A stretch of 64,000 nucleotides of DNA, taken from Acidithiobacillus montserratensis (GTDB lineage: Bacteria > Pseudomonadota > Gammaproteobacteria > Acidithiobacillales > Acidithiobacillaceae). A model generated the notes under the pieces. The model worked only from the letters and a program-made list of their open reading frames with translations, had not been told where the DNA came from and did not search any database. Made by a program: the position numbers and the translations under genes. This document shows positions 14,392-30,987 of the stretch, in pieces. The first letter of the stretch is position 1. Every line of letters starts with the position of its first letter. The stretch lies in NCBI RefSeq assembly GCF_018853465.1, contig NZ_JABBOU010000009.1, positions 1 through 64,000 of the forward strand, read 5' to 3'.

Positions 14392-16506
14392 TCACGGGGA
14401 TCCTGCGACAATGATCAACACCAGTACCAGGGCGATCAGGATGTAGCTGGCATAGGTATTGACCCGGCCTTTGTGCATTTTGGCCAGTAATGCGGCAATC
14501 CGCATGGTGCTTTGAATGACAGGTTGAATCACCAGGCGTTCGGAGATGTTGGTGATGATCTGGTGATAGCTGCGGGTCAGCACAAAAGCACCCTGACGTT
14601 CTTCTTTTTCTTCCATCAGCGGATGAAAAAACCCCTGAAAGACAGCCCGGACCGGCGCGGCAAAAGTGGTTGCCGTGTACGTCATTTCCGGGCGCAAGCG
14701 TGTCAGTCCGGCATCCCAGAGGGTGTTGCGGCTGACCTGATGTTTACGGCGACGCAGGCCGCGCGCCAGCACCCATACCGTTGCGAGCATGAATATCAGC
14801 ACAAGAAAAGTCAGCAGTGTGGACATGGCATAGACCACCGGTGCGTTGCCCTGATTCAGATGCATGACCACGAGGCTGCGTAGCGGCAGGAAAGTGGCTC
14901 CCAGATTGGCGCCGATGGGATCCAGGGCGTGCCTTACGGCCAGGGGAACCTGACTGGGTATATGGAAAAAATCAGGCACGAGGGATGCGGTCGGATTGGC
15001 CCCCAGAAGGGGGGCTGCCAGACGGGACAGAACGGGCAGGATCAGGGTGGCCGCAAGGCCCAGCAATAAGGCGAGCAGGGCCAGCAAGCCCATGGGTATG
15101 ACCACGGTCAACGGTGCTTTTTTTGCCGCACTGGCATGGGTGGAACGGGGTAATCCCATCAGGGCGCTGCCGGGGAGCATGATAAAGCAGGTCAGGGCCA
15201 ATCCTGAGGTGAGGGCCAGCAAGGCACCGGACAGAGCGAAAGTGATGCGCACGGGAATGTCCGGTATTTCCACCACGCGCAGCAACGACTCCAGCAATAA
15301 CCATTCACTGACAAAACCGTTGAAAGGAGGCAGGGCGGCAATCGCAAAAGCGCCCAAAAGAAAGAAGGTACCCAAAGCGGGTAGCCGCTTCATCAGGCCC
15401 CCCAGTTCATCCAGATTATGGGTGCCGGTGCTGGCGTCTATTCCCCCGGCTCCAAGAAAAAGCAGGGTCTTGAAGGTCGAATGATTGATCATGTGATAGA
15501 GGCCGGCGACCATGCTGGCACCCCCCAAAAACGGATGTCCATAGGCGGCAAAGGTTAGCCCCGCACCTATTCCGGCAGTGGCAATGCCCATGTTTTCAAC
15601 AGAGCTCTGGGCCAGCAGCCGTTTCATGTCTTTTTCGACGAGTGCGTAAATAATGCCGATGAGCGCGGTCAGGGCGCCACTGCTGAGAATGATCAGGCCA
15701 AGTTGCGGCAGGTGCAGGGCTATGGGCGCGTCAATGCGTAAAAATGCATACAGCCCCAGATTGAGCGTGGCCCCCGAGAGTATCGGCGAAGTGGAACGCG
15801 GGGCGGTGCCATGGGCGGCGGGCAACCAGACATTGAGGGGAATGATGCCAGCTTTCATGCCGAATCCGAAAAATGCCAACAAACCCGCGACCATCAGCAG
15901 GGTCGGTGACATTTCCGGAACGGCACTGGCTATCGCTTCCAGTTGTGGAGAACCCGCAGCGGCGGCCAGTAACAGCAGACTGACCAGACCCGCAAGACTG
16001 CCCAGCTCGGATAATGCGAGAGTCAGTAATCCAGCGGCAACTGGTTTGCTCTGCCGGGTTTCAAAGGTGATCAGTCCCCAGATGGCCAACGCTGCCAGCT
16101 CCCAGCAGAAGATAAATGCGGCAATGCTGGCTGCCGAAAAAAAGCCGATCATACTGGCGAGCGTCAGCATGACAATGGTCAGAAACAGCCCCCTTCTTGC
16201 GCTTGGATAAAGATTGGCATCGTGGGTGACAAAAGGGAGGGCGACGGCAAAAACACTGGCAGTGATGAGAATCAGCAGCCCGCCCAAGGGGGTTTGCACA
16301 AAATCCAGGGGGCCAATGATGGGTAACTGCAGGGCAACCAGCGACTGGTTGTGGCCTGCTGCAATGGCTATGACCGCCTGAATACCCGCCAAAATACAGG
16401 CGCTGGTCATTACTGACCAAGCACTCAGGGCTGGTATGCGACGGCCGGGAATGAACGCCAGGATCGGACCGGCCGCAAAGAGCAGAAACGCAATGATGTA
16501 GAGCAT
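14392..16506 (-). CDS. HyfB-like antiporter subunit of Ehr complex 1
   Basis: 704 aa, NuoL/HyfB/MrpA-type proton-translocating membrane subunit with about 16 helices and a long polar C-terminal part plus a last helix. Key charged residues of the fold are present: Glu in FCWELAALAIWG, Lys in GFGMKAGIIPLNVWLP, and EKDMKRLLAQSSVENMG. The ATG overlaps the stop of the I-subunit gene (TGATG), so the longer frame to 16605 is rejected. It is the last gene of the first C-E-F-G-I-B operon. Ion pumping is inferred from the retained residues; which ion is unknown. Confidence 0.88.
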   Translation of the reverse strand: MLYIIAFLLFAAGPILAFIPGRRIPALSAWSVMTSACILAGIQAVIAIAAGHNQSLVALQLPIIGPLDFVQTPLGGLLILITASVFAVALPFVTHDANLYPSARRGLFLTIVMLTLASMIGFFSAASIAAFIFCWELAALAIWGLITFETRQSKPVAAGLLTLALSELGSLAGLVSLLLLAAAAGSPQLEAIASAVPEMSPTLLMVAGLLAFFGFGMKAGIIPLNVWLPAAHGTAPRSTSPILSGATLNLGLYAFLRIDAPIALHLPQLGLIILSSGALTALIGIIYALVEKDMKRLLAQSSVENMGIATAGIGAGLTFAAYGHPFLGGASMVAGLYHMINHSTFKTLLFLGAGGIDASTGTHNLDELGGLMKRLPALGTFFLLGAFAIAALPPFNGFVSEWLLLESLLRVVEIPDIPVRITFALSGALLALTSGLALTCFIMLPGSALMGLPRSTHASAAKKAPLTVVIPMGLLALLALLLGLAATLILPVLSRLAAPLLGANPTASLVPDFFHIPSQVPLAVRHALDPIGANLGATFLPLRSLVVMHLNQGNAPVVYAMSTLLTFLVLIFMLATVWVLARGLRRRKHQVSRNTLWDAGLTRLRPEMTYTATTFAAPVRAVFQGFFHPLMEEKEERQGAFVLTRSYHQIITNISERLVIQPVIQSTMRIAALLAKMHKGRVNTYASYILIALVLVLIIVAGSP

Positions 16507-17249
16507 CAGGGCTGTTCCTCCAGGGAGGCTGGCGCTACCCGTCCCACCAGGCTGAGCAAGCCATGAATGATGGCGAGAGGCGGGGGTGGGCAGCCGGGCA
16601 ACCATAAATCGACGGGAATGATTTTTTCCAGTCCACCGGCACAGGCAAAGCTTTCCCCGAAAATGCCGCCATTGATGGCACAGGTGCCCATGCCCATGAC
16701 CCTTTTGGGGGCTGGCATGGCGGCGTAGGCCTTGAGGATAGCGGTACGCATGGCATCGGTGATCGGACCCGCCACCAGGAGCACATCGGCGTTACGCGGG
16801 GTTGCCGTCACAAAAATACCGAGACGGTGAAGATTATAAGGGGGTGCATCGACCAGTCGGACTTCATTGACACAGGCCCCGCAAGCTCCTGCATCAATAT
16901 ATAAAACATGCAGAGAAGCCGAAAAGCGCGAGCCCAGAACGGGCTGCGCAGAGGCTGTAGAAGCGCCCCAGGCGAAATCCCGGGACCAGGGGAGGGCATG
17001 GGAGCCGGTCCGGCAGCGTTGGCAATGAATACAGCGGGAAAAATCCACCGCCACACCATGCTCTGAGGTCTCCTGTTGCTTGACGACCCGCAGGGCCTGG
17101 GTCGGACATTGCGCAGCGCTTTCTTCGGGGTGCAGGCTCTGCGTCGCTCGCGGCCGTCCCGGGGTGATGCCGACACTGTCCTCTTCGCCATCGGGCCAGG
17201 ATGTCGTGCTTATGCCTCTTTTCAATCCATAATAGGGCCAGAAGCTCAT
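16506..17249 (-). CDS. HyfI/NuoB-like subunit of Ehr complex 1 with one-cluster ferredoxin domain
   Basis: 247 aa. The NuoB-like half keeps all four ligands of the proximal [4Fe-4S] cluster (Cys123, Cys126, Cys190, Cys220 in GACGAC, GMGTC and LPGCPPPP). The N-terminal ferredoxin-like part retains only Cys48 (in QCPTQAL) and Cys73/76/79 (CIHCQRC). In a normal 2[4Fe-4S] fold these are exactly the ligands of the second cluster, so one cluster seems lost cleanly and the other kept. The start overlaps the G-subunit stop (TGATG). Compare the paralog at 25587-26378, which has all eight ferredoxin cysteines. Confidence 0.87.
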   Translation of the reverse strand: MSFWPYYGLKRGISTTSWPDGEEDSVGITPGRPRATQSLHPEESAAQCPTQALRVVKQQETSEHGVAVDFSRCIHCQRCRTGSHALPWSRDFAWGASTASAQPVLGSRFSASLHVLYIDAGACGACVNEVRLVDAPPYNLHRLGIFVTATPRNADVLLVAGPITDAMRTAILKAYAAMPAPKRVMGMGTCAINGGIFGESFACAGGLEKIIPVDLWLPGCPPPPLAIIHGLLSLVGRVAPASLEEQP

Positions 17250-18826
17250 CAGCGATCGTTCTCCGCTACGGACAGGCCCCAGGTGGCCAGAATGATGGGA
17301 AAATCCTGGAATGCCGCCCCTTCAATGGCGCGTTCGAAGGCGTGCCAGTTTCTGAAGCCGGGTGTCCCGAGGCGCAGGCGCGTGATCAAGCCGTCTGCAG
17401 TGCAGCGCAGCCAGTGAAAAGTGGCGCCTGAGGGCGCTTCTACCCAGGCCAGGGCATGCCCCTCGCGCACCGGGCAGGGGCTGTGTATGGGGCCGTCTGG
17501 TAAAAAGGCCAGCAAATCGAGGATCAGTTTGACGCTGATCCGGCTTTCGGCAAAAAATACCCGTAAGCGGGCGTAGCCATCGCCTTCTTCTTCCAACGGA
17601 ACATCAGGCGCCAGGAATCCATACTGTCCATAAGGCAAATTGCGCCGCAAGTCGATGTTTCTGCCCGAGGCTCTGGCGATGGGACCGACTACCCCGTAAG
17701 TTTTGGCCATCTGGCTGTCGAGCGTGCCCATTTCTTCGATACGATCAAGAAAGCTGGAGCTTTCTTCCAGGTGCTGTTCCAGCGCACGCATGCGCTGATC
17801 AATGGCAGGCAGATTGTTGTGAAGTATTTCGAGAGCGTCTGTATTCAGATCTTCGCGGAGTCCTCCCGGCGTCAGGACGCCAAAAAAATAGCGATGTCCA
17901 CACAGTCTGGCGCTGAGTCTCAGCAAATCTTCGACGATGCCTTGGGCCAGGGCCTTGGCCACGGACAGGGCCGTGGATCCGGCAATTTCGGCAATGTTGG
18001 CGGCATGATGACGGATGCGCTCCAGCTCGGCGAACACCATCCGCAATTGTTCGGCGCGGGGAGGTGGCTGACACGCGCCAATTTGTTCCAATGCCTGACA
18101 ATAAGCCCAGCCATGGGCAAATGCTGAGGCACCGGCAAAGCGTTCTGCCAGCAGCAGGCCCTGATCAACCGTACGGCCTTCGGCAATTTTTTCGACCCCG
18201 CGATATTTGTAAAACAGTCGGGTATGGAGATAGCGGATCTGCTCACCCGGTGTTTCGAGCAGCCACAGCCCGGATTCATTGAAATCTCCCCAGACTGGAC
18301 CGATGGGAAAAACGATAGCGCCTTCTTCCTGTAAAAGTCGGGGCGGTGCCCATTCTGCGCCAGTGCCATGGGCATCCGGACGTTTGCTGCCGTCAAACTG
18401 GCGGCGCATGGGGTCTATCCCTTCCGGCCAGTCATCATCGTGCAATACAAAATCGCCCAGAAAGGGGTGACCGCTGAAACGCAGTCCATACAAATCCCAG
18501 GCCTCGCGTTCGTGCCAGTCAGCGGCGTGAACGGTATCACTGATGGCCGGCAATTCTGCCCCCGCCTTGACGGCGACCTTCAGCTCGATCAATTTCCCGG
18601 TGGCAGGTAGATAAAACAGATAATGCACCGTCAAATTTTCCTGATCGGCAAGTTCTTCCACCAGCAGGGTGGCAAATTCGGCCTCTTCTTTTTCCAGCAG
18701 ATACCGGGTCAGCGTGGGTAACTGTTCTGCTGGACACATTATCTGTAACCATTGTTCAGAATGTTCGTGCCAGGACAGTGCAGAGTTGCTGTGCAGCACG
18801 GTTTGCAGTTCTATGGAAATACTCAC
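17249..18826 (-). CDS. HyfG-like large subunit of Ehr complex 1, no [NiFe] ligands
   Basis: 525 aa. NuoC-like N-terminus (HEREAWDLYGLRFSGHP at about 105-121) fused to a NuoD/hydrogenase large-subunit domain (YKYRGVEKIAEGRT). In group 4 hydrogenases the first metal motif is RxCGxC; here it is RFAGAS (229-234). The C-terminal DPCxxC is replaced by GLSVAE before the final NDR. All four Ni/Fe cysteines are therefore absent, as in energy-converting hydrogenase-related (Ehr) complexes, so it cannot be a normal [NiFe] hydrogenase. It starts with ATG overlapping the F-gene stop by 4 nt. Confidence 0.9.
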   Translation of the reverse strand: MSISIELQTVLHSNSALSWHEHSEQWLQIMCPAEQLPTLTRYLLEKEEAEFATLLVEELADQENLTVHYLFYLPATGKLIELKVAVKAGAELPAISDTVHAADWHEREAWDLYGLRFSGHPFLGDFVLHDDDWPEGIDPMRRQFDGSKRPDAHGTGAEWAPPRLLQEEGAIVFPIGPVWGDFNESGLWLLETPGEQIRYLHTRLFYKYRGVEKIAEGRTVDQGLLLAERFAGASAFAHGWAYCQALEQIGACQPPPRAEQLRMVFAELERIRHHAANIAEIAGSTALSVAKALAQGIVEDLLRLSARLCGHRYFFGVLTPGGLREDLNTDALEILHNNLPAIDQRMRALEQHLEESSSFLDRIEEMGTLDSQMAKTYGVVGPIARASGRNIDLRRNLPYGQYGFLAPDVPLEEEGDGYARLRVFFAESRISVKLILDLLAFLPDGPIHSPCPVREGHALAWVEAPSGATFHWLRCTADGLITRLRLGTPGFRNWHAFERAIEGAAFQDFPIILATWGLSVAENDR

Positions 18827-20304
18827 CCTTGCACCTCTAACAACTGCGCCGCTTCATGTACCAGATGGGTCAATGGTGGGGGAAGATAAAAGCCAAAAAC
18901 CAGAACCGGGATGAAGGCAATGGCCATGGCCGCCAGGCTGCTGCGGGGAATTTTTATGGCAGGGGAGGGCTCATTCTGGGCCGTATCCGGTGTACCAAAG
19001 GCGATGCGCGTAGCCTGGTAGGCCAGGGCAATGAAGGCGATCACTATAAAGGCGGTCAGCAGGCCTGTGGGCAGATACTGACCGTTACTGTAGCCGGTAT
19101 CGAGAATTTCAAATTCCGACAGGAAAAGGGCAAAAGGCGGAGCGCCGGCAATAGCCAGGGTGCCGAGAATCAGCGCCCAGCCAACCGCCGGAGCACGGCT
19201 GATCAGCCCCCGCACCTTGGCAATTTCCTGGGTGCCAAAAATGATGCCGGCCAGGCCTGCCGCAAAAAAGCAGAAAGATTTGGTAAAGCCGTGGGCAAAC
19301 AGCTGATAGACGGTGCCCTGCTCATGAACGGCGGCGCCAATGCCGCAGGCAGTGAGGATAATGCCCATGTGTTCAATGGTGGAATAGGCGAACATTCTTT
19401 TGAAATCATGTACCTGTATCAGCATGAAGGCAGCGCTGCCGACGGTGATGAGTCCGGCAGTCATGTACCAGGCGGCCGGATCATGGATGCCCGGATTGAC
19501 CGCGAGTGCCGGGTAGATACGTAACAACATGTAGAGGGCTGCACTGGTTTCAACTCCGGATAATACGGCGCAGACCGAAGCGGGAGCCTGACTGTGGGCA
19601 TCAGGAAGCCAGGTGTGCATGGGGACCAGACCGGTTTTGGCACCAAAACCGATCAGCCATAATACAAAAGCCAGGAGCAGCAAAGGCGCCGACATATGGG
19701 GTGCGGCTTTCAGCAGGCCGTCCCAGGTGGGGGCCTGCCCGGCGGCATGGGTTCCATAGTACAGCATCAATACCCCGAGCAAGGCGATCATGGCCCCCAT
19801 ACTGGTCAGAGCCACATATTTCCAGGCGGCTTCCAGCGCTTCGGCCCGATCTTCATAAGCCACCAGAAATGCCGAAAAAACGGTGGTGAGCTCAATGGCA
19901 ATCCACATGAGGGCTAGATTGGCCACCAGAGGTACGGCGAGGATGACCAGGGCAAAAACATTCATCAGCGGAAAATACTGGCGGTAACGCGGTTCTGCGG
20001 CGTCTTTGGCCTGTTCCTGTTGGCGGGCCCACAGGTAACCGATGGCATAAAGGGAGGAAGTAAAGTAAACAAAGCTCACCGGCAGCAAATACAGGGCACC
20101 CAGAGCGTCCAGATAAAACAGGCCATCGCTCCCGCTCAAGGGACCATGGGCTTCTACCTGCCAGGCTGCGGAAATCGCCAATAGCAGGGTAATAAAAGCG
20201 GCGAGCACACTGAAATAAGGTGCGGAACGCCGGTTTGCCAGGGCGAGCAAAGCGCCGCACAGGGGCACAAGCAGAATAAGTGCTGGCAGCCATTCAGTGT
20301 TCAT
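18823..20304 (-). CDS. HyfF-like antiporter subunit of Ehr complex 1
   Basis: 493 aa, NuoN/NuoL-type membrane subunit with about 14 helices. Conserved Glu in MWIAIELTTVFSAFLV, Lys in GFGAKTGLVPMHTWLPDAHSQAP, and the region VHDFKRMFAYSTIEHMGI. These support a working ion channel half. It starts at ATG 20304, 11 nt inside the E gene end; the longer frame to 20373 lies in the E gene. Paralog of 27890-29359. Confidence 0.9.
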   Translation of the reverse strand: MNTEWLPALILLVPLCGALLALANRRSAPYFSVLAAFITLLLAISAAWQVEAHGPLSGSDGLFYLDALGALYLLPVSFVYFTSSLYAIGYLWARQQEQAKDAAEPRYRQYFPLMNVFALVILAVPLVANLALMWIAIELTTVFSAFLVAYEDRAEALEAAWKYVALTSMGAMIALLGVLMLYYGTHAAGQAPTWDGLLKAAPHMSAPLLLLAFVLWLIGFGAKTGLVPMHTWLPDAHSQAPASVCAVLSGVETSAALYMLLRIYPALAVNPGIHDPAAWYMTAGLITVGSAAFMLIQVHDFKRMFAYSTIEHMGIILTACGIGAAVHEQGTVYQLFAHGFTKSFCFFAAGLAGIIFGTQEIAKVRGLISRAPAVGWALILGTLAIAGAPPFALFLSEFEILDTGYSNGQYLPTGLLTAFIVIAFIALAYQATRIAFGTPDTAQNEPSPAIKIPRSSLAAMAIAFIPVLVFGFYLPPPLTHLVHEAAQLLEVQG

Positions 20305-20971
20305 GGAGCTTGTCCAGAGTGCCCACACGCGTGGAGCCGGTAACCCGGCGAATGCTGCGGATGAGTAGGCCAATCACCAGGGCGACAATGGGCACGTCCA
20401 CCGCAGCGGCTATTTCGGCAATGACGGTCAGATTATGAACAATGGCGATGGAACCAAAAAAAGCACCATTTTCCATGATCAGCAGACCCATCATCTGCGC
20501 CACGCTCTCGCGCCGCAAGGCCACAGTGAAGGCTCCCCAAAGGACCATGATCAACCCCGTGGGCAGATTGATGACGGCAAAGGGAACCCCATGCAATGTG
20601 GGTAAAACCGGGGCAACCGCAAACCAGCCGACCAGGGCAAAAACGGCGGCAACCAGGACCGAAGCAGGAATTCCCAGGGCCTGATCCACTTCGCGACGAC
20701 CATAGACTTCTTCTCCGGCAGCCCAGCGCAGTACCAGGGGAACGGCGATAACCTTGGTGACAAAAGTGATCAGGGCTACCCAAAGCAGGTTGACTGTATG
20801 CAAGGCATCGGCAAGCACCAGGGCGGAAAGTGTCAGGGCGATCGACTGGCCCATGAAAAAGCGCAGGGAGGCGAGCATCTGGCGGGAGACCATGACGCCC
20901 AGCCCAAATACCACAAATAGCGCTGCGACGGATCCGGCAATACTGAGCATGATCGGACTGACGGTGATCAT
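20294..20971 (-). CDS. HyfE-like subunit of Ehr complex 1
   Basis: 225 aa, about seven helices, with the HyfE-type C-terminal stretch MMGLLIMENGAFFGSIAIVHN (Glu in a helix next to Asn). HyfE combines a NuoK-like half with extra helices and lies in the membrane arm. The ATG at 20971 overlaps the C-gene stop (TGATG); the longer frame to 21241 is a read-through of the C gene in another frame. Confidence 0.85.
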   Translation of the reverse strand: MITVSPIMLSIAGSVAALFVVFGLGVMVSRQMLASLRFFMGQSIALTLSALVLADALHTVNLLWVALITFVTKVIAVPLVLRWAAGEEVYGRREVDQALGIPASVLVAAVFALVGWFAVAPVLPTLHGVPFAVINLPTGLIMVLWGAFTVALRRESVAQMMGLLIMENGAFFGSIAIVHNLTVIAEIAAAVDVPIVALVIGLLIRSIRRVTGSTRVGTLDKLHEH

Positions 20972-21933
20972 CAGGCAATTCCTGTCAGCCGGATGCTGAC
21001 TGCAAAGAGACAAATGATGAAAGCCACGGCGAGAAACTCGGAAATTCTGAACAGCCTTAGCTTCGCGAGGGTGGTTTCCACCAGGGCGAGAATGATGACA
21101 AAAGCCAGCAATTTGAGCAGAACCAGACCAACAGCTGCGAGAACAGCTGTCCACTGCGTGCTCTGCGCCAGCCCCCAGGGGGTCACCAGTACATTCACAA
21201 ACACCAGTGCCAGCACCATGAGTTTGTTGGCCCCACCCCATTTCATCAATGCCGCGCTGGTCCCGGAATACTCCAGCCCTTTGGAATGGCCGATCATGGC
21301 GATTTCTACTTTTCCTGCTGGACTGTCTACCGGAATACGGCCCTCATCGGCCAGTATCAGCAGGAAAAAAGCGAGAATGACCATAAAGTGGGCAGGCTGT
21401 AACATGCTGGCCCATGATGCCCCCCAGGTGGCAGTCACAAAATAAGGGATGGTGCTGTTGGCAACGTAAGACACGCTAAAAAACACCATGATGAAAACAG
21501 GTTCGGCGAGAAAACCCACCATGTGGGTCCGGCTGGCGCCGACGGCGGCATAAAGATTGCCTGTATCCATGCCGCCCAGGGCCACAAAAAAACCGGAAAT
21601 GGCCATCAGGAAACCCACAGCAACCATATCTCCCATAAAAGCAAAAAACAGGGGATAAGCCGTCAGAGCAGGTATCAGTAACACGACGAAAAGAGGCATC
21701 ACAAAAGCGACGATGGGGGCAAAGCGGAATACCCAGGTGGACTGTTCGGAAATGACTTCATCCTTGGCAAAAAGCTTCCAGATATCGCGATAAGTCTGCC
21801 AGACGCTGACGCCACTTTTTCCCTGGATGATTTCTTCCAGACGGTGCAGCACCCCTTCCACCAAGGGGGCAAACAAAAGAATGAAGCCCACTTGACAGAG
21901 ATTCAGCACCAGATGGGTCCAGAGCGTGCTCAT
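20971..21933 (-). CDS. HyfC/NuoH-like subunit of Ehr complex 1
   Basis: 320 aa, eight predicted helices. NuoH/HyfC features: LLFAPLVEGVLHRLEEIIQGKSG, YRDIWKLFAKDEV, DEGRIPVDSPAGKVEIAM and KGLEYSG, i.e. the acidic cytoplasmic loops that line the quinone/proton entry in complex I relatives. Joined to the preceding unknown gene by an ATGA overlap and to the E gene by TGATG. Confidence 0.9.
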   Translation of the reverse strand: MSTLWTHLVLNLCQVGFILLFAPLVEGVLHRLEEIIQGKSGVSVWQTYRDIWKLFAKDEVISEQSTWVFRFAPIVAFVMPLFVVLLIPALTAYPLFFAFMGDMVAVGFLMAISGFFVALGGMDTGNLYAAVGASRTHMVGFLAEPVFIMVFFSVSYVANSTIPYFVTATWGASWASMLQPAHFMVILAFFLLILADEGRIPVDSPAGKVEIAMIGHSKGLEYSGTSAALMKWGGANKLMVLALVFVNVLVTPWGLAQSTQWTAVLAAVGLVLLKLLAFVIILALVETTLAKLRLFRISEFLAVAFIICLFAVSIRLTGIA

Positions 21934-22421
21934 GACAGCCCTACTTTGTAACCCAGTGCGGCCAGCAGGTCACCAATACCCATCAACCCCAAAGCCCATT
22001 TCCAGCGTGCTCCCTGCACCCATTGACCCAGGGTGAGTCCTACGCCCAACGGGGCCGCAGCGCCCATAAAACTGCTGGCTGTGGCAATGCTGGCCATATC
22101 CTCAATAATATCTCTATAACTGCAGGGATGTTGATAGTGACCAATAAATTCGCAATCCGTTTTGACAGATTTCTGGAGAGAAGAATGTAAAATCATGGGC
22201 AGAACATGGGCTGTTCCACTGGCGCATATCCACAAATCTACACCAGACCGTGAGTATTCTTCGGCTTTTCGGGAAACTCGGGTGGCCAGCGCTTCTACCG
22301 ATTGCTTCAAAACTATGGGCTGTTTTGGGCGCAAATTCGGTACTGTAAAAGATTGCGATGATGACAAATTACCCTCCACATGCCAAACTTTAATTCGGTC
22401 AATGTAGAAGTCATCAGCCAC
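21930..22421 (-). CDS. Unknown protein heading Ehr operon 1
   Basis: 163 aa from a GTG at 22421. No family recognised. The first 110 residues are soluble with three cysteines (ICASG, TDCEF, HPCSY) and the last 55 are hydrophobic and Gly/Ala-rich, probably two membrane segments (MGAAAPLGVGLTLGQW; WALGLMGIGDLLAALGY). It lacks any counterpart in the second operon. Its stop overlaps the C-subunit ATG (ATGA), so it is translated together with the complex. The GTG has no good ribosome binding site; a TTG at 22367 has a strong GGAGGG 5 nt upstream, so the true start may be 18 residues later. Accessory or assembly role is a guess. Confidence 0.65.
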   Translation of the reverse strand: MADDFYIDRIKVWHVEGNLSSSQSFTVPNLRPKQPIVLKQSVEALATRVSRKAEEYSRSGVDLWICASGTAHVLPMILHSSLQKSVKTDCEFIGHYQHPCSYRDIIEDMASIATASSFMGAAAPLGVGLTLGQWVQGARWKWALGLMGIGDLLAALGYKVGLS

Positions 22422-22453: not shown

Positions 22454-22459
22454 CGATTA

Positions 22460-22488
22460 ATTATACAAAATTAAATCATTTCATTCAA
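22460..22488 (-). promoter_or_regulatory. Sigma70-type promoter of Ehr operon 1
   Basis: On the minus strand a -35 TTGAAT (22483-22488) and a perfect -10 TATAAT (22460-22465) are spaced by 17 nt. Transcription would start near 22453, at the edge of the 32-bp block shared with operon 2. Confidence 0.7.
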
Positions 22489-23242: not shown

Positions 23243-23620
23243 TCAGATACTGCGGGATATCCAGGCACCGGCAAATGCCGCTGCCACACACAGGAATAGT
23301 GAAGCAAACATGTAAATCAGAGCCTTGACGGTATCGCCATTTTCGAACAGTACCAGGGTTTCCAGGGAAAATGTCGAGAAAGTGGTGTAGGCACCCAGAC
23401 CTCCGGTGAGCATGCCGGTACGCAATTCCGGACTGAGGGAAATGCGCTCCAGGGTTTCAAAAAACAAAAAACCCATGATGAAACAGCCCATGATGTTGAT
23501 GCTTAGTGTGGCCCAGGGAAAATCTCGTCCAAATACGGTTTGCACCAGCAAACTCTGACCATATCGAGCCCAGGCACCCAACACCGCAAATATGGCAATG
23601 AAGCCGAAGGTGGCAAACAT
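23243..23620 (-). CDS. crcB: CrcB/Fluc fluoride channel
   Basis: 125 aa, four helices. Seen: GAWARYGQSLL, TLSINIMGCFIMGF (the conserved Asn-x-x-Gly turn) and GGLGAYTTFSTFSLE, the Fluc signature. It acts as a dimer that lets fluoride leave the cytoplasm, important in acid where HF enters. AAGGAG 6 nt before ATG. Only 18 nt separate it from the hyfB-like stop, so it is in the Ehr 2 transcript; no space for a fluoride riboswitch exists directly upstream. Confidence 0.92.
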   Translation of the reverse strand: MFATFGFIAIFAVLGAWARYGQSLLVQTVFGRDFPWATLSINIMGCFIMGFLFFETLERISLSPELRTGMLTGGLGAYTTFSTFSLETLVLFENGDTVKALIYMFASLFLCVAAAFAGAWISRSI

Positions 23621-23638: not shown

Positions 23639-25597
23639 TTAAATATAAAAAACACTCGCAAAAATGATAATCAGCAATAATCCTATATAGGCAAGATAAG
23701 CATTCAAGGAACCATTTTGCAGAGCCAGTCCGATGCGGTCACTCAAAAACTGAATGAAACGAACAATTGGTCGAAATAACCAGGGGCCGAATACCGGTGC
23801 CTGGCTATAATCAAAGTGCAGTTCCCGCACAAAATAATTACGTTCCGTATGGCTTCTGCGGGTGTTGGTACTGGGACGATACACAAAGCTGTAAAATTCC
23901 CGCAAGGCATTGGAAAAAGCCAGGGCGGTCACTGCATTATTGGCCGGAATCTGCCGCAGACCATGTCCCCAAACCGGCACCCGTTTGCGGCCCTGACGGA
24001 GATGACTCCAGCCCAGCAGCGTCAGGGGAATGAGCGACAACAATAGGCCCATCAGCAGCAACAGCGGCGGGGAAATAAAGGCGAAATGGAAGCGCAGGGG
24101 AATCAGAATCGGCCCTTTCACCATGGCCTGCAGAGCGGCCGGTACGGCTGGCCAGTTGTCCTGGGCGAGGAAACCCAGCGTCCAGGGCAGGGCTGCGGCA
24201 TAGGCCAGCACCAGCAAACCGAGACCGAGAATCGGCCAGCGTCCGGAAACGGCTTGATGATTTTCCTCACGGCCCAGAAGGCCCAATCCAAACACTTTGA
24301 TCATGGTGGCCAGGGCGATGGCGGCAGTCAGTGCCAGGCCGGCACCACCCAGGGCCAAAGTGACCCGGGCAGCAGAGCTGCTCAGGTGAAAATCCTGGAA
24401 TACGGTCTGGAATAAATACCATTCACCGGCAAAACCGGCGGTGGGTGGCATGGCGGCCAGACTCATGGCGCCGAGCAGCGCACCGATACCCAGAGTCCAG
24501 GGAGCAAGTGCCAATAGCCGGCTTTGGGCAATGGCATAGCTTCCCCGGACTCCAGCAACCCGGTCCGCGCTGAGCATCATGCTGCCTTTGGCGAGACTGT
24601 GACCACCCAGATGGATGAGTCCTACGGTCCAGGCCAGGGTAGAGAGCATGGTGAGCCCATCCGCCCGGAACAGGGACGCCGCACCTAAGGCAACCACGGC
24701 GAGCCCGGCATTTTCAGCGGTGGAAAAAGCCAGCAGACGCCGCCAGTCTTCCTGTTGAAAGGCATATAAAATGGCGAGAATAGCGGTGATGGTTCCCAGG
24801 GCCACCAGTAAAATACCGGTGCCGGTCGCGCTGCTGCGCGGTAACCAGTCGAGCATGGCCCTCCCCAGAGCAAAATAGGCGACATTGAGCACAATACCTG
24901 ACAGCAAGGCTCCGGAAGCACCACTGCCGCTGCCATAAGCGCCGGGATACCACTCATAGAAGGGCAGGATGCCGAGCTTGGCGCCAAAGCCGATGATAAA
25001 GAGGATGGCAATACCGAAGGCGGCGGATCCATAGCCTGCCCATGTGCCCGCCCAGCTGGCAAAATCCGTGTTGTGGGCGCCGAGCAAAAGCAGGCACAGA
25101 AGCAGTGCGACAGCACCCACTTCCAGTAGCGCGAGCATATACAAATTGGCCTGGCCACTTTTTTCGTCTTGCTGCAAGCCGTCGGCCAGAAGCATGATCG
25201 CACCGCCGAAGCTTAGAAATTCCCAGGCGATCAAAAAAGCAATGCCTTCCTGCAGGCCGGCAATACCCAGACATCCCAGCAAGGCGAGACCTGCGCCGGA
25301 CATCCAGATGCCGGGATTTTTGGCGCGGCTTGGCGACAGAACAGCGGCTAGTGCGGCGAGCCCCCCCCAGAATATCAACCAGGCAGCCGCTGCTTGCAGG
25401 TGCCAGGTGACGGGAATGTCACCCAGTGACCAGAGCTGACCGGAGCTGTTTCCGGACGAAAGGCTGAGAACGCTGCCCGACAAGGTGGCCAGGGTGCCGA
25501 TAATGAGGGCAATGCGCGCGCTCTGAGCCAGTCGCAGCAGGCCCAGGACGATGGCCAGGACAAAAAATCCGGCTGCCAGCAGAAAACTATTCAGCAT
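23639..25597 (-). CDS. HyfB-like antiporter subunit of Ehr complex 2
   Basis: 652 aa, paralogous to 14392-16506 but divergent. NuoL-type helices with Glu in IAWEFLSFGGAIML, Lys in GFGAKLGILPFYEWYPGAYG and QQEDWRRLLAFSTAENAGLA. The usual VWLPxAH segment is altered to EWYPGAYGSGSGASGALLSG. The polar C-terminal part ends in one more helix (LAYIGLLLIIIFASVFYI). The ATG at 25597 lies 11 nt inside the end of the I gene. Confidence 0.87.
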   Translation of the reverse strand: MLNSFLLAAGFFVLAIVLGLLRLAQSARIALIIGTLATLSGSVLSLSSGNSSGQLWSLGDIPVTWHLQAAAAWLIFWGGLAALAAVLSPSRAKNPGIWMSGAGLALLGCLGIAGLQEGIAFLIAWEFLSFGGAIMLLADGLQQDEKSGQANLYMLALLEVGAVALLLCLLLLGAHNTDFASWAGTWAGYGSAAFGIAILFIIGFGAKLGILPFYEWYPGAYGSGSGASGALLSGIVLNVAYFALGRAMLDWLPRSSATGTGILLVALGTITAILAILYAFQQEDWRRLLAFSTAENAGLAVVALGAASLFRADGLTMLSTLAWTVGLIHLGGHSLAKGSMMLSADRVAGVRGSYAIAQSRLLALAPWTLGIGALLGAMSLAAMPPTAGFAGEWYLFQTVFQDFHLSSSAARVTLALGGAGLALTAAIALATMIKVFGLGLLGREENHQAVSGRWPILGLGLLVLAYAAALPWTLGFLAQDNWPAVPAALQAMVKGPILIPLRFHFAFISPPLLLLMGLLLSLIPLTLLGWSHLRQGRKRVPVWGHGLRQIPANNAVTALAFSNALREFYSFVYRPSTNTRRSHTERNYFVRELHFDYSQAPVFGPWLFRPIVRFIQFLSDRIGLALQNGSLNAYLAYIGLLLIIIFASVFYI

Positions 25598-26378
25598 ATT
25601 GGCCTCCGCTGACACGTTGGGGCATGCGCTCCAGCAACAGCAGTAGTGCATGGATCAGGGCGGCGGGATTGGGTGGACAGCCCGGCAGCCAGATGTCCAC
25701 AGGAAGAATTTTTTCCACGCCTGACCCCCCGGCATATCCGCCATCCATGGGCGCTCCCGAAACCGCACAAGTGCCGGTGGCGATCACGCTGCGGGGTTCG
25801 GGCATGGCTTCCCAGGTCGCCAGCAGCACGTCGTGCATGGGCGCCGTCACCGGACCCGTCACCATGAGCAGATCGGCGAAGCGTGGGGAAGGCGTAAAGA
25901 AAATTCCGAGACGATGCAAATTGTAAAAAGGATTGTCCAGGGCGCTGATTTCCGCTTCGCAGGCATTACAGGAGCCGGCGTCCACATGGCGAATATGCAG
26001 GCTGCGCCGCTGGCTGGACGCAATGCGTTTGCGCAGGTGTTCCGCCTCATGGCTTTCCAGGGCTGAAGACCAGGTCAGGTCACTGCGCTGGCGAACGCCA
26101 AAGGCCCAGTCATAAGAGCTCTGCATGGCGCCTTCGGGACATTCTTCCACGCAACGCTGACAGACAATGCAGCGTCCGTAATCAATGACCGGTTCAGCCT
26201 CTATCTGGTGAATGGCCTGGGTGGGGCAACTGTTGACACAGAGGTCGCAACCGCTGCGGCATTTATCGATATCCAGACGCGGCATACCGAGGACGCCCTG
26301 CTGTCCGTCGGAACCGCTGTGTGGCCAGCGGGTGGCGGCTTTGCCGGCTTTGAGTCCTGTCCAGGTCCATAGAGGCAT
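25587..26378 (-). CDS. HyfI/NuoB-like subunit of Ehr complex 2 with 2[4Fe-4S] ferredoxin domain
   Basis: 263 aa. N-terminal ferredoxin domain with two full motifs: Cys40/44/47/51 (CRSGCDLC then SCP; note CxxxC instead of CxxC at the first step) and Cys70/73/76/80 (CIVCQRCVEECP). The NuoB part keeps the proximal cluster cysteines in GSCNAC, ATGTC and LPGCPPNP. Electrons should pass ferredoxin-like clusters to the NuoB cluster, but the partner large subunit has no Ni/Fe site. AGGAG precedes the ATG; 9 nt after the G gene. Confidence 0.9.
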   Translation of the reverse strand: MPLWTWTGLKAGKAATRWPHSGSDGQQGVLGMPRLDIDKCRSGCDLCVNSCPTQAIHQIEAEPVIDYGRCIVCQRCVEECPEGAMQSSYDWAFGVRQRSDLTWSSALESHEAEHLRKRIASSQRRSLHIRHVDAGSCNACEAEISALDNPFYNLHRLGIFFTPSPRFADLLMVTGPVTAPMHDVLLATWEAMPEPRSVIATGTCAVSGAPMDGGYAGGSGVEKILPVDIWLPGCPPNPAALIHALLLLLERMPQRVSGGQYAE

Positions 26379-26387: not shown

Positions 26388-27893
26388 CTAACGGTCGCAG
26401 CCGGCAATGGTGAGGCCGAAGCTGGCTTCGTTGATAGCGTAATCCATCATGTTGGTACCATGTACCGTCAGCGGGAATACGCGCCAGTTGGAAAATGAGG
26501 GAGATTTGATTTTGACCCGCTGCAGTCGCCCGTCCCGGATGCGCACGGCGTACATGAGTGTGCCCCGGGGGGTTTCCGCCCAGCCGAGGCCCTGCTGCTC
26601 TCCTGGCGGTGGCGCATATTCCGCCTGTACCGGACCGGCCTTGAGACGCCCGGATGCCTGCACCAGTAAGGCCAGGGCTTCGCGCAGGGATTCGGCGCGA
26701 ACCTCGCTGCGCGCCATGGCATCCCCTTTCTCGCGGACGGGTACGTTAAAACGTAACTTATGATATGCCGCGTAGGGATGATCCCGGCGTAAATCCCGGT
26801 CCAGTCCCGAGGCGCGGGCGACCGGGCCGGTGGCTCCCTGATCGAAGGCGGCTTCCCGGGAAAGTATCCCGGTGCCCATCAGGCGGTCCAGATGAGTCGC
26901 GGTCTGATGCAGGCGATGCAGGTAAGCTTCGCCTTCGTCGATAATGCCTTCCAGGGCGCTTGCCAGATGTTCGGCGGATAGATCCCGTCGCAGGCCACCC
27001 ACGCAGAGCAGGCTGCGCAAATAGCGGGACCCCGTCAATTGGCCCGCTAGCTGTTTGACTCGCTCTTCCATCAGAAAACCGGTGGCGGCCCCGACCTTGA
27101 GGGTGGTGGTTTTGGCCAGTTGGCCAAAATAGTGAAAATGATTATACAGTCGCTCCAGTTCCACAATGATGACGCGCAGCAGCTGCGCCCGCAGCGGTAC
27201 TTCAATGCCCCAGGCATTTTCCACCGCCTGACAGTAGGCCAGGGCGTGGCAGGCACTGCCCACACCCGATACCCGCTCAGCCAGATACACACTGCGTGCG
27301 GCATCCTGCCCCGCAAAGCGTGCTTCCATGCCCCGGTGTTTAAAAAACAGCCGGGGATGATAATGAAGAATGGCCTCGCCAATGTAGGAGTAGTGGAATT
27401 CGCCGGTTTCCACCACATCGGCGCGTACGGGTCCCCAATACAAGTCCTGTACCTGATCGCTCTGCACTTCGGGCATGCTGGGGGGCTCGTAACTTCCTTG
27501 CAAATGGCCTTGCAAATGGTCGTCTGCAGTCGTTCGGCCCAGGGGCGGCGGGGAGATGCTGAAACCTTCATGAATGATCAGGGGAAAGGGCTCGGGATGT
27601 CCGCTGAACTCAAGGCCACCCAGATCGTGCATTTCCCGTTCATACCAGCCTAAAAGCGGGACTACAGCAGCCAGGGAAGGCAGCGTATCGGTACCCCGCA
27701 CTTCCAGCAGCACAAATTCAGCGTTGCCTTTCTGACTGAGTAAATAACGGACCACACATTCCTGGTCCTCCCAGTCATGCCAAGCCATCAAAAAGCGCAT
27801 CTGCTGATTCAGACATTCCCGGGCGACATCTACGAGTTGATCTACCGTAACCAGTCGGGTGCTGCACGAATTCAATGAACTCTCCATACTCAT
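26388..27893 (-). CDS. HyfG-like large subunit of Ehr complex 2, no [NiFe] ligands
   Basis: 501 aa, NuoC-NuoD-type fusion. NuoC-like stretch WYEREMHDLGGLEFSGHPEP at 83-102; NuoD-like FFKHRGMEARFAGQ. Where hydrogenases have RxCGxC, this has RVSGVG (207-212); where they have DPCxxC before the C-terminal TDR, this has GLTIAG before CDR. So all four metal cysteines are missing; a lone Cys at the end is one position off. The start ATG overlaps by 4 nt with the F-gene stop at 27890. The longer frame to 27983 is rejected. Confidence 0.9.
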   Translation of the reverse strand: MSMESSLNSCSTRLVTVDQLVDVARECLNQQMRFLMAWHDWEDQECVVRYLLSQKGNAEFVLLEVRGTDTLPSLAAVVPLLGWYEREMHDLGGLEFSGHPEPFPLIIHEGFSISPPPLGRTTADDHLQGHLQGSYEPPSMPEVQSDQVQDLYWGPVRADVVETGEFHYSYIGEAILHYHPRLFFKHRGMEARFAGQDAARSVYLAERVSGVGSACHALAYCQAVENAWGIEVPLRAQLLRVIIVELERLYNHFHYFGQLAKTTTLKVGAATGFLMEERVKQLAGQLTGSRYLRSLLCVGGLRRDLSAEHLASALEGIIDEGEAYLHRLHQTATHLDRLMGTGILSREAAFDQGATGPVARASGLDRDLRRDHPYAAYHKLRFNVPVREKGDAMARSEVRAESLREALALLVQASGRLKAGPVQAEYAPPPGEQQGLGWAETPRGTLMYAVRIRDGRLQRVKIKSPSFSNWRVFPLTVHGTNMMDYAINEASFGLTIAGCDR

Positions 27894-29359
27894 GGCTGCA
27901 CCAGAAAAGCCTGTTGAAAAAATCCCCACAATCCGGTGGGCCACCACAAACCCAACACCAGTACCGGGATCAGTGCCAGCCACATGGGCAGAGTATTCCA
28001 GAGAGAGAGTTTCAGGGTCGGCGCCGTATCGGGTTCGGGTTCCGGTCCCCAGATCATCCGCCGGAAATGATTCATGAAAGCGGTAAAAATGAGAATGAGC
28101 AGAATCGCCATCACCCAGACCGCCCAGGGGTTGGGGCTGAGAATGCCACCACGGAGGATGGTCAGCTCCGACAAAAACAAGCCGAAGGGTGGGGCGCCGG
28201 TAATGGCGACCGCGCCGAGCAGCCAGACAGTGCCGCTCACCGGATAGTAGCGCAGCACATGCCGCATTTTGCTCATGGATTTGGTGCCGTAAGCACGCAT
28301 CATGTTGCCCGCGCCGAAAAACATCAGGGACTTGTTCAGGGAGTGATTGAGCATGTGGTACATGGCACCCGCAAAGGCAATGGCCCCGCCAAAACCGAAA
28401 CCTATGGCCAGCACCCCCATATGTTCCAGGGAGGAATAGGCGAGCATGCGTTTGGCGCCATCCTGACGGACGATGAACAGTCCGGCCACGAACAGAGAAA
28501 GCACCCCCAATACCAGCAGGGCAGTGTGGCCCATGACGCTGTAACCACCGCTATCGACAATGGCCAGAAAGCGATAAATCCCGAGCAGGGCAATATTGAG
28601 CAAGGCGCCGGAAAGCATGGCGGACACCGGAGCCGGGCCTTCGCTGTGGGCATCGGGAAGCCAGGTGTGCATGGGGGCCAGACCAACCTTGGTGCCAAAC
28701 CCTACCAGAGTCAGGAGGAAGGCCAGAAAGAGCAAGGTTTCCGGCACCTTGGGGGCAACTTCGCGGAGATTGGCCCAGGTCAGCGCATAGGTCGGTCCGA
28801 GTACAAAGGTGCCTCCCCAGTAAAACAGGATGATGCCGAGCAGAGCCAGAGCTAACCCCGCAGACACCACAATCAGGTATTTCCACGCGGCCTCAATGCA
28901 CTCCGCTTCTTTCTCAAAACCCACCAGAAAGGCACTGACAATGGTTGTAAAGTCAATCGCAATCCAGAAAATGCCCGGATTGTTCATCAATGGCGCAATG
29001 AGCATGGTCAGCGCGAAACCCGCCTGCAGGGCGTAGTATTTGTGGAGTCGCGGCTTTTCTTCAGGCAACAGGCGCATGTAGCCAATGGCATAAATGGAAG
29101 CCAGCAGGTACACCAATCCTACACAGAACAGCACCCAGGCCCCCAGCGGCGTCAGCAAAATATAGCGCGCCCCGGTAACCAGGGGCTTATCGGGTGCGGC
29201 CACCAGAATGGCCAGGGTCAGCCCAAACACGGTGATGGACGTGAGCAGATTCAGATATTCCGCCAGACGCGGGCGGCGCAGGGCCAGCATCACGATAATG
29301 GCGACACCGGGGATGATCCAAAGCGCGGCGATCAGAGCAGCAAAATTGACCATGTTCAA
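27890..29359 (-). CDS. HyfF-like antiporter subunit of Ehr complex 2
   Basis: 489 aa, NuoN/HyfF-type. Lys in GFGTKVGLAPMHTWLPDAHSEGP is present; the helix-5 acidic residue is Asp (FWIAIDFTTIVSAFLVG), where the paralog has Glu. RQDGAKRMLAYSSLEHMGV is conserved. ATGA overlaps on both sides with the E and G genes. Confidence 0.9.
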   Translation of the reverse strand: MNMVNFAALIAALWIIPGVAIIVMLALRRPRLAEYLNLLTSITVFGLTLAILVAAPDKPLVTGARYILLTPLGAWVLFCVGLVYLLASIYAIGYMRLLPEEKPRLHKYYALQAGFALTMLIAPLMNNPGIFWIAIDFTTIVSAFLVGFEKEAECIEAAWKYLIVVSAGLALALLGIILFYWGGTFVLGPTYALTWANLREVAPKVPETLLFLAFLLTLVGFGTKVGLAPMHTWLPDAHSEGPAPVSAMLSGALLNIALLGIYRFLAIVDSGGYSVMGHTALLVLGVLSLFVAGLFIVRQDGAKRMLAYSSLEHMGVLAIGFGFGGAIAFAGAMYHMLNHSLNKSLMFFGAGNMMRAYGTKSMSKMRHVLRYYPVSGTVWLLGAVAITGAPPFGLFLSELTILRGGILSPNPWAVWVMAILLILIFTAFMNHFRRMIWGPEPEPDTAPTLKLSLWNTLPMWLALIPVLVLGLWWPTGLWGFFQQAFLVQP

Positions 29360-30036
29360 CCCACCAGCTTTTGCAGGCCACGACTGCTGGTGGTGCCGGC
29401 ATGGGTCTGCAGGAAACGCACCAGCATACCGAAAGCCATGACAATGGTGAGCAGGTCGAAAATGATCACCAGTTCGAGGAGGGCTGGCATGCCCGGAACC
29501 AGAATCTGAGAGCCTAGAAAGATACCGTTTTCAATGACCAGCAAGCCGAGAATGTGACTGATGGCCTCGGAGCGTAAAATCATCATCAAAAAACCGATCA
29601 ACTTGAGACTGAACATGCAGGTCAGGGCGAGAACGGCAATATTGTCGGTCAAGTGCAGGGCAATGCCGAGTTGCCGGGACACCTCGTAGGAGAAAATGAC
29701 CAGCGCCGCACCCAGTATCATGCTGGATGAGGGTTTGAGCAGGGGGGTAAATTCCCGCTGGATATCCAGACGATTCACCAGACGGATGACCAGATAAGGC
29801 AGGAACGTTCCGCGAAACAAGGCGGTCAAGGCCGCAATGACATAAAGCTCGGGGTAATGTCCGTAATAGCCAATGGAGGCGGATATGGCGGCAATGGTCC
29901 AGGATTCTGCCGCGAAAGCGTACACATGATTTTTCAGCCAGTGGGAAGCCAGCATGACAAAGGACAGGACCAGGGCAAGAATGGCAAGCAGGCTGAACAG
30001 GGAGGTAGCCAGTGGACCCAGATGAAAGATCAGCAT
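29356..30036 (-). CDS. HyfE-like subunit of Ehr complex 2
   Basis: 226 aa, about seven helices, ending with ILGLLVIENGIFLGSQILVPG, the HyfE signature stretch also found in its paralog at 20294-20971. The Glu in this helix is retained. It is separated from the C gene by 9 nt and overlaps the F gene by 4 nt. Confidence 0.85.
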   Translation of the reverse strand: MLIFHLGPLATSLFSLLAILALVLSFVMLASHWLKNHVYAFAAESWTIAAISASIGYYGHYPELYVIAALTALFRGTFLPYLVIRLVNRLDIQREFTPLLKPSSSMILGAALVIFSYEVSRQLGIALHLTDNIAVLALTCMFSLKLIGFLMMILRSEAISHILGLLVIENGIFLGSQILVPGMPALLELVIIFDLLTIVMAFGMLVRFLQTHAGTTSSRGLQKLVG

Positions 30037-30045
30037 GTGCCGCTC

Positions 30046-30987
30046 CTAGAGTTGATCGGCCACAATGGCCAATACCGCGAAAAGAAAGGACAGTGCCAGA
30101 GGTTCCTGATAGCGGTAGAAGCGCAGCCGGGACTGCATGGTATCCACGCCCACCATCAACAGCCCGATGAACCCGTATTTTGCGAGAATGATCAGCAATG
30201 CCAGCAGTACCGAAGGAAAACTGCCGGTGGTTGATAATCCCCAGGGAAACAGAAAGACATTGAGAAAAATCGTATAGAGGATAAATTGCTTCATCCACCC
30301 CGCCCATTTCAGCAAGGCGAGGAGCGGGCCCGAATATTCGAGAATGCGCGCCTCATCAATCATGTAGATTTCGTAGGGGATGGTGGAATGAATGGGCAGG
30401 CGGTCAGTTTCCACGGTGAGCAGAATAAAAAAGGCCAGAATCAGAAAAATATGCGCCGGACTCCAGTAGGCCACGGGATTTTGGGCGAGCAGATGATTGG
30501 CCACAAAGGGCAGCATGGAGTGATCGAGAAAAGTGATGCCCACAAAAACCAGGATCAGGGTCGGTTCGGCCAGAATACCCAGCATGACGGCGCGACTGGA
30601 GCCTAAGCCCCCAAAAGGCTGGCCGGTATCCAGTCCTGCCAGCAGGATAAAAAAACTGCCCAGGGTCAGGATCAGGCCGCCCCCCAGAATGTCCCCCATA
30701 TCGGATAAGGGCAGGGGAAAATTGGTCAGCACCGGGATGAGCATAGGGACAATCAGCATCGCTGTAAAAGCAACGACTGGTGCCCAGAAGAACACCCAGG
30801 TGGCTGATTCCGGAACCAGCAGAGATTTATTAAAAAGTTTCCAGAGATCCCGGTAGGGCTGGAAAATGGAGGGACCTTGACCGCGCTGGACGCGCTCTTC
30901 CACGGTGGTGATGAAACCGTGCAGCAGGGGGGCAAGCAACATGACTGTCAGCACTTGCCCGCATTGCAGAAGGACGGAACCCAACAT
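30046..30987 (-). CDS. HyfC/NuoH-like subunit of Ehr complex 2
   Basis: 313 aa. NuoH-type features: LLHGFITTVEERVQRGQGPSI, YRDLWKLFNKS, the acidic loops ETDRLPIHSTIPYEIYMIDE and RILEYSG. First gene of operon 2; AGGGAGAG stands about 5 nt before the ATG at 30987. The longer frame to 31038 lacks signals. Paralog of 20971-21933, but with more Glu/Asp in the quinone-side loop. Confidence 0.9.
   Translation of the reverse strand: MLGSVLLQCGQVLTVMLLAPLLHGFITTVEERVQRGQGPSIFQPYRDLWKLFNKSLLVPESATWVFFWAPVVAFTAMLIVPMLIPVLTNFPLPLSDMGDILGGGLILTLGSFFILLAGLDTGQPFGGLGSSRAVMLGILAEPTLILVFVGITFLDHSMLPFVANHLLAQNPVAYWSPAHIFLILAFFILLTVETDRLPIHSTIPYEIYMIDEARILEYSGPLLALLKWAGWMKQFILYTIFLNVFLFPWGLSTTGSFPSVLLALLIILAKYGFIGLLMVGVDTMQSRLRFYRYQEPLALSFLFAVLAIVADQL

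Follow-up and report, generated by a model that had tools for sequence, protein, structure and literature searches.

Two Ehr-type operons and a fluoride channel gene at one locus

A 64-kb stretch of the Acidithiobacillus montserratensis genome (positions 1 to 64,000 of contig NZ_JABBOU010000009.1; hereafter the window) carries two operons encoding Ehr complexes, relatives of the group-4 [NiFe] hydrogenases, each associated with a fluoride riboswitch. The source genome is 2.83 Mb in 178 contigs and 100% complete. In the accessible text of PMC6349859, Ehr is defined by the group-4 subunit set without the Ni/Fe-binding residues, together with Mrp antiporter-like subunits. This description also fits archaeal Mbx and the two complexes considered here, called Ehr-B (5' operon of the pair, 30987-23639) and Ehr-A (3' operon, 21933-14392). 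An initial annotation, made from the sequence alone, had described two head-to-tail six-gene operons on one strand with a shared C-E-F-G-I-B order, and both are indeed present on the minus strand with reading frames open throughout. Their assignment to the Ehr type is also upheld: they are group-4 relatives without Ni/Fe ligands, and G, I, C and antiporter-like subunits are encoded together. The features of the locus are:

31042..31105, minus strand: fluoride riboswitch 1, Ehr-B leader (RF01734, 53.1 bits against a gathering score of 34, E 6.7e-12)
30046..30987, minus strand: Ehr-B subunit C, HyfC/NuoH-like (NADHdh PF00146, E 1.2e-30)
29356..30036, minus strand: Ehr-B subunit E, HyfE-like (Oxidored_q2 below cut-off; place conserved in relatives)
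27890..29359, minus strand: Ehr-B subunit F, antiporter-like (Proton_antipo_M PF00361, E 2.6e-50)
26388..27893, minus strand: Ehr-B large subunit G, without [NiFe] ligands (Complex1_49kDa, E 4.7e-41)
25587..26378, minus strand: Ehr-B small subunit I, with a two-cluster ferredoxin domain and a domain for the proximal cluster (Oxidored_q6, Fer4 families)
23639..25597, minus strand: Ehr-B subunit B, HyfB-like antiporter (Proton_antipo_M, E 7.3e-25)
23243..23620, minus strand: CrcB/Fluc fluoride channel (CRCB PF02537, E 4.2e-28)
22911..23228, minus strand: DUF190 (COG1993) protein (PF02641, E 7e-25, scored on the longer ORF 22911-23291)
22528..22914, minus strand: HEAT-repeat protein, also weakly matching a zinc ribbon (HEAT_2, E 6.6e-8)
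22398..22460, minus strand: fluoride riboswitch 2, leader of the Ehr-A group (RF01734, 56 bits, E 7.6e-13)
21930..22367, minus strand: deletion fusion of a small ORF and a VIT-like membrane protein (two BLAST pieces, ORFs in relatives)
20971..21933, minus strand: Ehr-A subunit C (NADHdh, E 2.8e-29)
20294..20971, minus strand: Ehr-A subunit E (Oxidored_q2 below cut-off; 31% identity to Ehr-B E over 91 residues)
18823..20304, minus strand: Ehr-A subunit F, antiporter-like (Proton_antipo_M, E 1.9e-47)
17249..18826, minus strand: Ehr-A large subunit G, without [NiFe] ligands (Complex1_49kDa, E 9e-40)
16506..17249, minus strand: Ehr-A small subunit I, proximal cluster kept and ferredoxin domain degenerate (Oxidored_q6, E 3.3e-24)
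14392..16506, minus strand: Ehr-A subunit B, HyfB-like antiporter (Proton_antipo_M, E 4.4e-45)

The Pfam families are the same in both operons. Subunit C belongs to NADHdh, F and B to Proton_antipo_M, G to Complex1_30kDa plus Complex1_49kDa and I to Oxidored_q6 with an N-terminal ferredoxin part; E matches Oxidored_q2 below cut-off only. Identity between Ehr-A and Ehr-B is 38% for C, F and I, 33% for G, 31% for E (over 91 residues only) and 19% for B (over 124 residues only). Subunit B of Ehr-A scores 426 bits with the hydrogenase-4 B model, under its cut-off of 667. Between the operons lie crcB, the DUF190 gene and the HEAT-repeat gene. The initial annotation had overlooked the two riboswitches, crcB, the DUF190 gene and, in subunit I, the ferredoxin domain and its ligand loss in A.

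Fluoride riboswitches precede both operons

A search of the window with Rfam cmscan gave two matches above gathering score, both to the fluoride riboswitch RF01734, and a search across the whole genome found only these two. Riboswitch 1 (31105-31042) lies directly ahead of Ehr-B gene C, and riboswitch 2 (22460-22398) ahead of the short gene preceding Ehr-A. Matches to mir-2772, sR5, DicF and Mu-gpT-DE were under their gathering scores and were set aside. In the predicted ligand-free fold of riboswitch 1, the Shine-Dalgarno sequence and the gene C start are paired with aptamer bases; in that of riboswitch 2 the same is true of a Shine-Dalgarno-like GGAGG and a TTG start. Compared with shuffled sequences, the two leader folds had z-scores of -3.25 and -2.68. 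These modelled folds are what translational ON switches would be expected to show, and the arrangement strongly suggests that both Ehr operons are under fluoride control. Because both operons lie behind fluoride riboswitches with crcB between them, growth on sulfur, iron or H2 is not the first test to apply to these complexes.

RF01734 was present in 24 of 40 genomes compared: all 17 of the genus (A. montserratensis included), seven of eight from the rest of the family and none of the 15 further out. Within the family, 26 regions around riboswitches, from 23 genomes, were compared with the proteins of the window by tblastn. A complete six-gene Ehr-B operon is found in 13 of the 26 and is followed in every one of the 13 by crcB and the DUF190 gene. 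Ehr-A, whole or cut by the end of the region, comes after Ehr-B in eight of these 13; a ninth (L053) has a piece of gene C only. Among the loci examined, Ehr-A was found only beside Ehr-B. One further region (L060), which stops just past the riboswitch, gave no tblastn match.

A wider scan, with one genome per species and based on an alignment of large subunits, yielded at least 538 confirmed relatives, the best 80 loci of which were used, a set biased to type B (69 in Pseudomonadota and 11 in Acidobacteriota). All 80 loci were then searched with a covariance model derived from 32 riboswitches. Gene C with at least 120 nucleotides upstream is present in 69 of them, seven of which had contributed sequences to the model, and a same-strand riboswitch was detected ahead of the gene in all 69; the other 11 loci are cut. 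The distance from riboswitch to the start of the gene C BLAST hit is up to 400 nucleotides in 64 loci, approximately 500 to 550 nucleotides in three and approximately 1.3 kb in two, and in one of the latter (L082) a CrcB-like gene lies between. Rfam's own model, tried on the seven loci that had contributed sequences, recovers the riboswitch in all seven. In two loci (L139 and L203) the riboswitch is directly ahead of an A-type gene C. A second riboswitch class, suspected from the variant GATGATGCC, proved also to be RF01734. By genome, 48 of the 49 that hold 50 of the 80 loci have RF01734, compared with 57 above cut-off among 398 genomes sampled evenly across the phylum.

Genes detected by BLAST in the 80 loci encode relatives of CrcB (41 loci), DUF190 (38), enolase (27), MutS (26), MFS transporters (19) and CLC (12), and the enolase, MutS-like, CLC and CrcB neighbours are known fluoride-regulon genes. 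A CrcB or CLC relative is found in 51 of the 80 loci and in 27 of the 36 that are at least 20 kb long. ORF clustering missed genes in GC-rich loci (shadow ORFs) and served only to choose neighbours for naming. Five loci (L134, L113, L114, L136 and L138) are fluoride islands with five to eight model riboswitch matches within approximately 21 kb, some as divergent pairs.

As a control, 398 Pseudomonadota genomes (A. montserratensis included) were searched with the A and B large subunits, which matched proteins of 27 to 35% identity in 72 and 70 other genomes, respectively. With places compared by eye, no riboswitch lay within 50 kb on the same contig as the control group-4-like genes, given that few candidates were scored per genome, that the riboswitch filter was strict and that neighbours in draft genomes may be on other contigs. 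A control gene and a riboswitch share a contig only in genomes G251 and G224 (gene and riboswitch more than 1.3 Mb apart) and G307 (57 kb apart). Within these limits, the control rules out chance, or a general link between the riboswitch and group-4 genes, as the explanation.

There are 46 distinct control proteins (59 loci, own genome excluded), three with full [NiFe] motifs and C-terminal tail and 43 without, one of which (L189) has a single Cys in the first ligand motif. The initial annotation had also called for a tree, which was built for the large subunit from 86 rows: the window's two proteins, 24 of the 93 B homologues, 12 A homologues, the 46 controls and two NuoD-like proteins. B, A and the other Ehr-like proteins form one clade each (support 100/100). 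A and B join with support of 97/90, where the program warns of long branches meeting, and their sisterhood is less sure. Thus, A and B are set apart from the 43 other Ehr-like controls both by clade and by their position behind fluoride riboswitches, the controls having none within 50 kb on the contig. These controls include a second Ehr-like group without metal ligands or riboswitch (C_L145 to C_L198, for example L185 and L187) that is common in the Pseudomonadota sample. Its motifs (SGDS and SFNCSYSG-like) are as in the A. thiooxidans hydrogenase-like complex given in the accessible part of PMC6002666, which accordingly matches the other-Ehr controls and not A or B. A group-4 cluster has also been described in A. 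ferrooxidans (PMC2621215, accessible text).

The large subunits have lost the metal site

The large subunit was compared in 94 B-type proteins (window plus 93 homologues, 88 distinct) and 13 A-type proteins (window plus 12 homologues, nine distinct). The register of the two ligand motifs was set by profile alignments with HycE of E. coli (for L1), MbhL of P. furiosus (for L2) and Nqo4 of T. thermophilus, plus the aligned controls. The absence of metal-binding cysteines, first seen in the two window proteins, extends to both families: all four ligand positions are without Cys in every B-type protein (94/94), and A-type proteins have none in L1 (13/13) or in L2 (10/10 readable, three being cut). 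In B-type proteins the two L1 positions are occupied by Ser (87), Ala (5), Val (1) or Thr (1) and by Gly (57), Asp (36) or Ala (1); those of L2 hold Thr (75), Ser (17), Ala (1) or Gly (1) and an invariant Gly (94). Both types stop at the end of the mature hydrogenase, with no C-terminal tail; CxxC, DPCxxC and tail are all present in the three [NiFe] controls. Metal ligands displaced but still present, which the initial annotation had named as the point to check, were looked for by alignment. One Cys lies beside an L2 position in 75 of the 94 B-type proteins, but a single displaced Cys is no ligand set, and loss of the metal site stands.

The best solved relatives are 7z0s_E for G (E 6e-48) and 7z0s_G for I (E 2e-32), from E. 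coli formate hydrogenlyase (FHL-1, HycE); from this enzyme and from hydrogenase 4 the A and B large subunits differ in having neither the CxxC pairs nor a processed tail. A search of the A. montserratensis genome with PF01924 gave no match to HypD, the E. coli control being positive. No FdhF relative was found by tblastn at E 1e-5 in the 80 loci, the 26 family regions and the window, the rest of the genome not being searched. Because there are no ligands, no HypD was found and no FdhF relative lies beside the operons, the complexes are not a [NiFe] hydrogenase or formate hydrogenlyase in this organism. H2 is not a plausible substrate, given the missing [NiFe] ligands and HypD.

Respiratory complex I has in common with Ehr-A and Ehr-B the fold families of G, I, C, E and F. 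It differs in the residues His38 and Tyr87 of Nqo4, which we take to be quinone-binding: the first aligned position is Val in B and Asn in A, and the second is Gly. With its quinone ligands replaced, a complex-I-like quinone reductase is not supported, and the NuoD-like proteins of the same genome form a distant branch.

These results bear on an old entry in the fluoride regulon. According to the accessible text of Weinberg 2010 (PMC2864571), repeated in PMC8004769, the crcB motif precedes mutS, genes that transport K+ or Cl- and those for formate hydrogen lyase, and a 2024 review, as far as its text is accessible, names formate hydrogen lyase as a formic acid oxidiser (PMC11139923). The 'formate hydrogen lyase' has thus been listed since 2010 with a metabolic guess only. 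It is very probably the same thing as the Ehr complexes described here, which neither the name nor the formate explanation fits, since no [NiFe] ligands, HypD or adjacent FdhF relative was found. Two puzzles are thereby joined: the riboswitch-linked complex would be an Ehr clade for fluoride conditions, in Pseudomonadota and Acidobacteriota, rather than a hydrogenase. For Ehr complexes, which have no settled physiological role, this gives one family a defined likely inducer. The annotation itself, a source of misreadings in bioleaching bacteria, is put right as well. Changes in 'formate hydrogenlyase' have been reported for A. ferridurans, and the word fluoride is absent from the accessible text of that report (PMC12053936). 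Among open PMC texts, subscription papers lying outside, there was no report of an Ehr complex behind a fluoride riboswitch or of loss of the metal site in a fluoride-linked complex.

Electron and ion paths

All twelve iron-sulfur (Fe-S) cysteines of B-type subunit I are invariant (92/92 rows). In A-type subunit I the ferredoxin-type cysteines are reduced to one of four and three of four in all eight rows (two from the same genome), and no readable row lacks any of the four proximal cysteines. The small subunits' proximal cluster, recorded as retained in the initial annotation, is therefore kept in A and B alike. A distant A-type protein (51% identical) from an Acetobacteraceae metagenome-assembled genome shows the same loss of ferredoxin cysteines, which argues that the change in A is an old specialisation and not recent decay.

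Retention of the key Glu/Asp and Lys of the antiporter subunits likewise holds in all or nearly all readable rows. In B-type F, D/E136, K224, K343 and E398 are kept in 90/90, and in B-type subunit B, E127 is kept in 85/85 readable rows and K208, K338 and E393 in 87/87. A-type F keeps E140, K225, K344 and E399 in 13/13, and the ion-path residues of A-type subunit B are kept in 3/3. Presumably these residues of F and B have the roles that they have in complex I, and together with the kept Fe-S residues they would fit a coupling of redox reaction to ion translocation.

The complete Fe-S chain of Ehr-B might instead serve as a valve for metabolic electrons, an outlet that resembles formate hydrogenlyase or oxidises ferredoxin and keeps metabolism running when fluoride blocks enolase and other enzymes, with pumping secondary. 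The presence of enolase in 27 of the 80 loci fits such an outlet, which is near the reading of 'formate hydrogen lyase' in the accessible text of the 2024 review (PMC11139923). It is an unlikely explanation, as [NiFe] ligands are absent in 94/94, HypD was not found in the genome, there is no FdhF relative at E 1e-5 in the loci, regions and window searched, and ion-path residues are strictly kept in two antiporter-like subunits.

The ferredoxin-type domain of Ehr-B would also suit operation in reverse, where the large inward proton gradient of an acidophile lifts electrons to a carrier resembling ferredoxin that the cell needs when stressed by fluoride; such reversal by the proton gradient has been proposed for the group-4 complex of A. 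ferrooxidans (PMC2621215, accessible text). This would bring more protons into a cytoplasm already acidified by hydrogen fluoride (HF), and hosts of the complexes include soil Paraburkholderia and other bacteria that are not known to be extreme acidophiles, so that reverse operation is quite improbable.

A primary fluoride pump, in which the antiporter-like subunits or the re-lined pocket carry F- or HF at the expense of redox energy, would explain the dedicated fluoride regulation and the loci without CrcB near by. Ehr-B subunit B also has an invariant Tyr-Glu (87/87) where E. coli HycC aligns His-Gly. Every ion-path residue is nevertheless like that of a cation translocator, and such a pump would be redundant with the CrcB or CLC relatives of 51 of the 80 loci. 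We know of no precedent for anion transport in the superfamily, and consider this role very unlikely. Fluoride channels and antiporters rely on the membrane potential. That Ehr-A and Ehr-B assemble together or act in series, expelling F- or HF by means of electrons and not membrane potential, is similarly a very doubtful prospect.

A possible role in repaying the proton leak of fluoride detoxification

We propose that the locus is a fluoride regulon and that the two Ehr complexes, which make up most of it, are fluoride-induced, redox-driven cation pumps which repay the proton influx caused by HF/F-, a reading to which we give a probability of roughly 0.55. It draws together the co-regulation, the kept ion paths, the Fe-S chain kept in B and a published link between fluoride and proton-motive force: as given in the accessible text of PMC11139923, fluoride depresses both the proton-motive force and the pH of the cytoplasm, and among riboswitch-linked classes only one is commoner than the Na+/H+ antiporters.

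A rise in cytoplasmic fluoride would fold the aptamers and free the ribosome-binding sites, so that Ehr-B with CrcB and DUF190, and also Ehr-A, would be made. The argument for a proton leak rests on the HF/F- equilibrium. At acid pH, HF would diffuse in and split into H+ and F-; with F- released through CrcB, one H+ would be left inside per turn, and the detoxification cycle would act as an uncoupler. Electrons may enter Ehr-B at the two ferredoxin-type clusters of subunit I, pass to the proximal cluster and leave to a putative acceptor in subunit G, at what was once the Ni-Fe pocket and is now re-lined. The energy could expel cations, most likely H+, through C, E, F and B and so repay the leak. 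Ehr-A might be a specialised partner or a second pump, in which electrons enter differently and the distal antiporter subunit is of another kind.

The initial suggestion of related but different redox-driven pumps stands as far as related and different are concerned (separate clades; the ferredoxin domain and HyfB of A differ). The two might also form the single hetero-complex that the initial annotation offered as an alternative. The pump role of both complexes, with its redox chemistry, direction and ion, we infer from sequence. Both are probably ion pumps that aid acid-living bacteria under fluoride and not H2-making enzymes. It is our impression, not a count, that many hosts come from acid habitats. 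If correct, fluoride resistance at low pH may require repayment of the proton leak besides an exporter.

Several observations weigh against a fluoride-induced pump. An Ehr-B scar lies between riboswitch and crcB in eight of the 26 family regions, so the complex is dispensable in some hosts, and four further family regions have riboswitch, crcB and DUF190 without Ehr. Only four of the eight family Ehr-A operons have a second riboswitch by the model (the window has one). Nine of the 36 long loci are without an exporter by BLAST, and CrcB lies within 1 kb downstream in only 25 of the 61 loci with room for it. Some of the ferredoxin ligands are lost in A, whose electron feed may be unlike that of B, and the quinone ligands of complex I are absent from the aligned large subunits of both.

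The eight regions that lost Ehr-B yet keep riboswitch and crcB are also what would be expected if the Ehr genes were hitch-hiking in a fluoride island with no role in defence. Hitch-hiking is extremely unlikely, however, since the riboswitch precedes gene C in 69/69 loci, though CrcB is so often not within 1 kb, and since it directly precedes the A-type gene C of L139 and L203. The scars themselves (L047, L048, L051, L055, L058, L061, L062 and L063) consist of gene C fragments, the last part of gene B, or both, with breakpoints that vary from genome to genome.

Neighbouring genes

An orphan gene at 21930-22421, ahead of Ehr-A, was considered as a new family; this was ruled out, as it is the deletion fusion listed above. 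Its place in relatives (L053 6879-7970, L041 4735-5858, L054 6846-7938) is taken by a small ORF, a DUF211 gene (seen in L053) and a gene for a VIT-like (weak match) membrane protein, with a riboswitch ahead of the set in some. Comparison with PHROGs gave no useful match.

Next after the Ehr locus is a gene for cyclopropane-fatty-acid synthase (13039-14352), a relative of which lies directly behind a fluoride riboswitch in L072 (1058-1301) and L079 (17098-17394); a change in the membrane may thus be part of the fluoride response. Past it is a gene for a TMEM175-family potassium channel (12380-12958), whose place is kept in several relatives. Just upstream of Ehr-B are genes for a beta-lactamase-family hydrolase (31159-32325) and a choloylglycine-hydrolase-family protein (32522-33604), and the position of the former is kept in some relatives.

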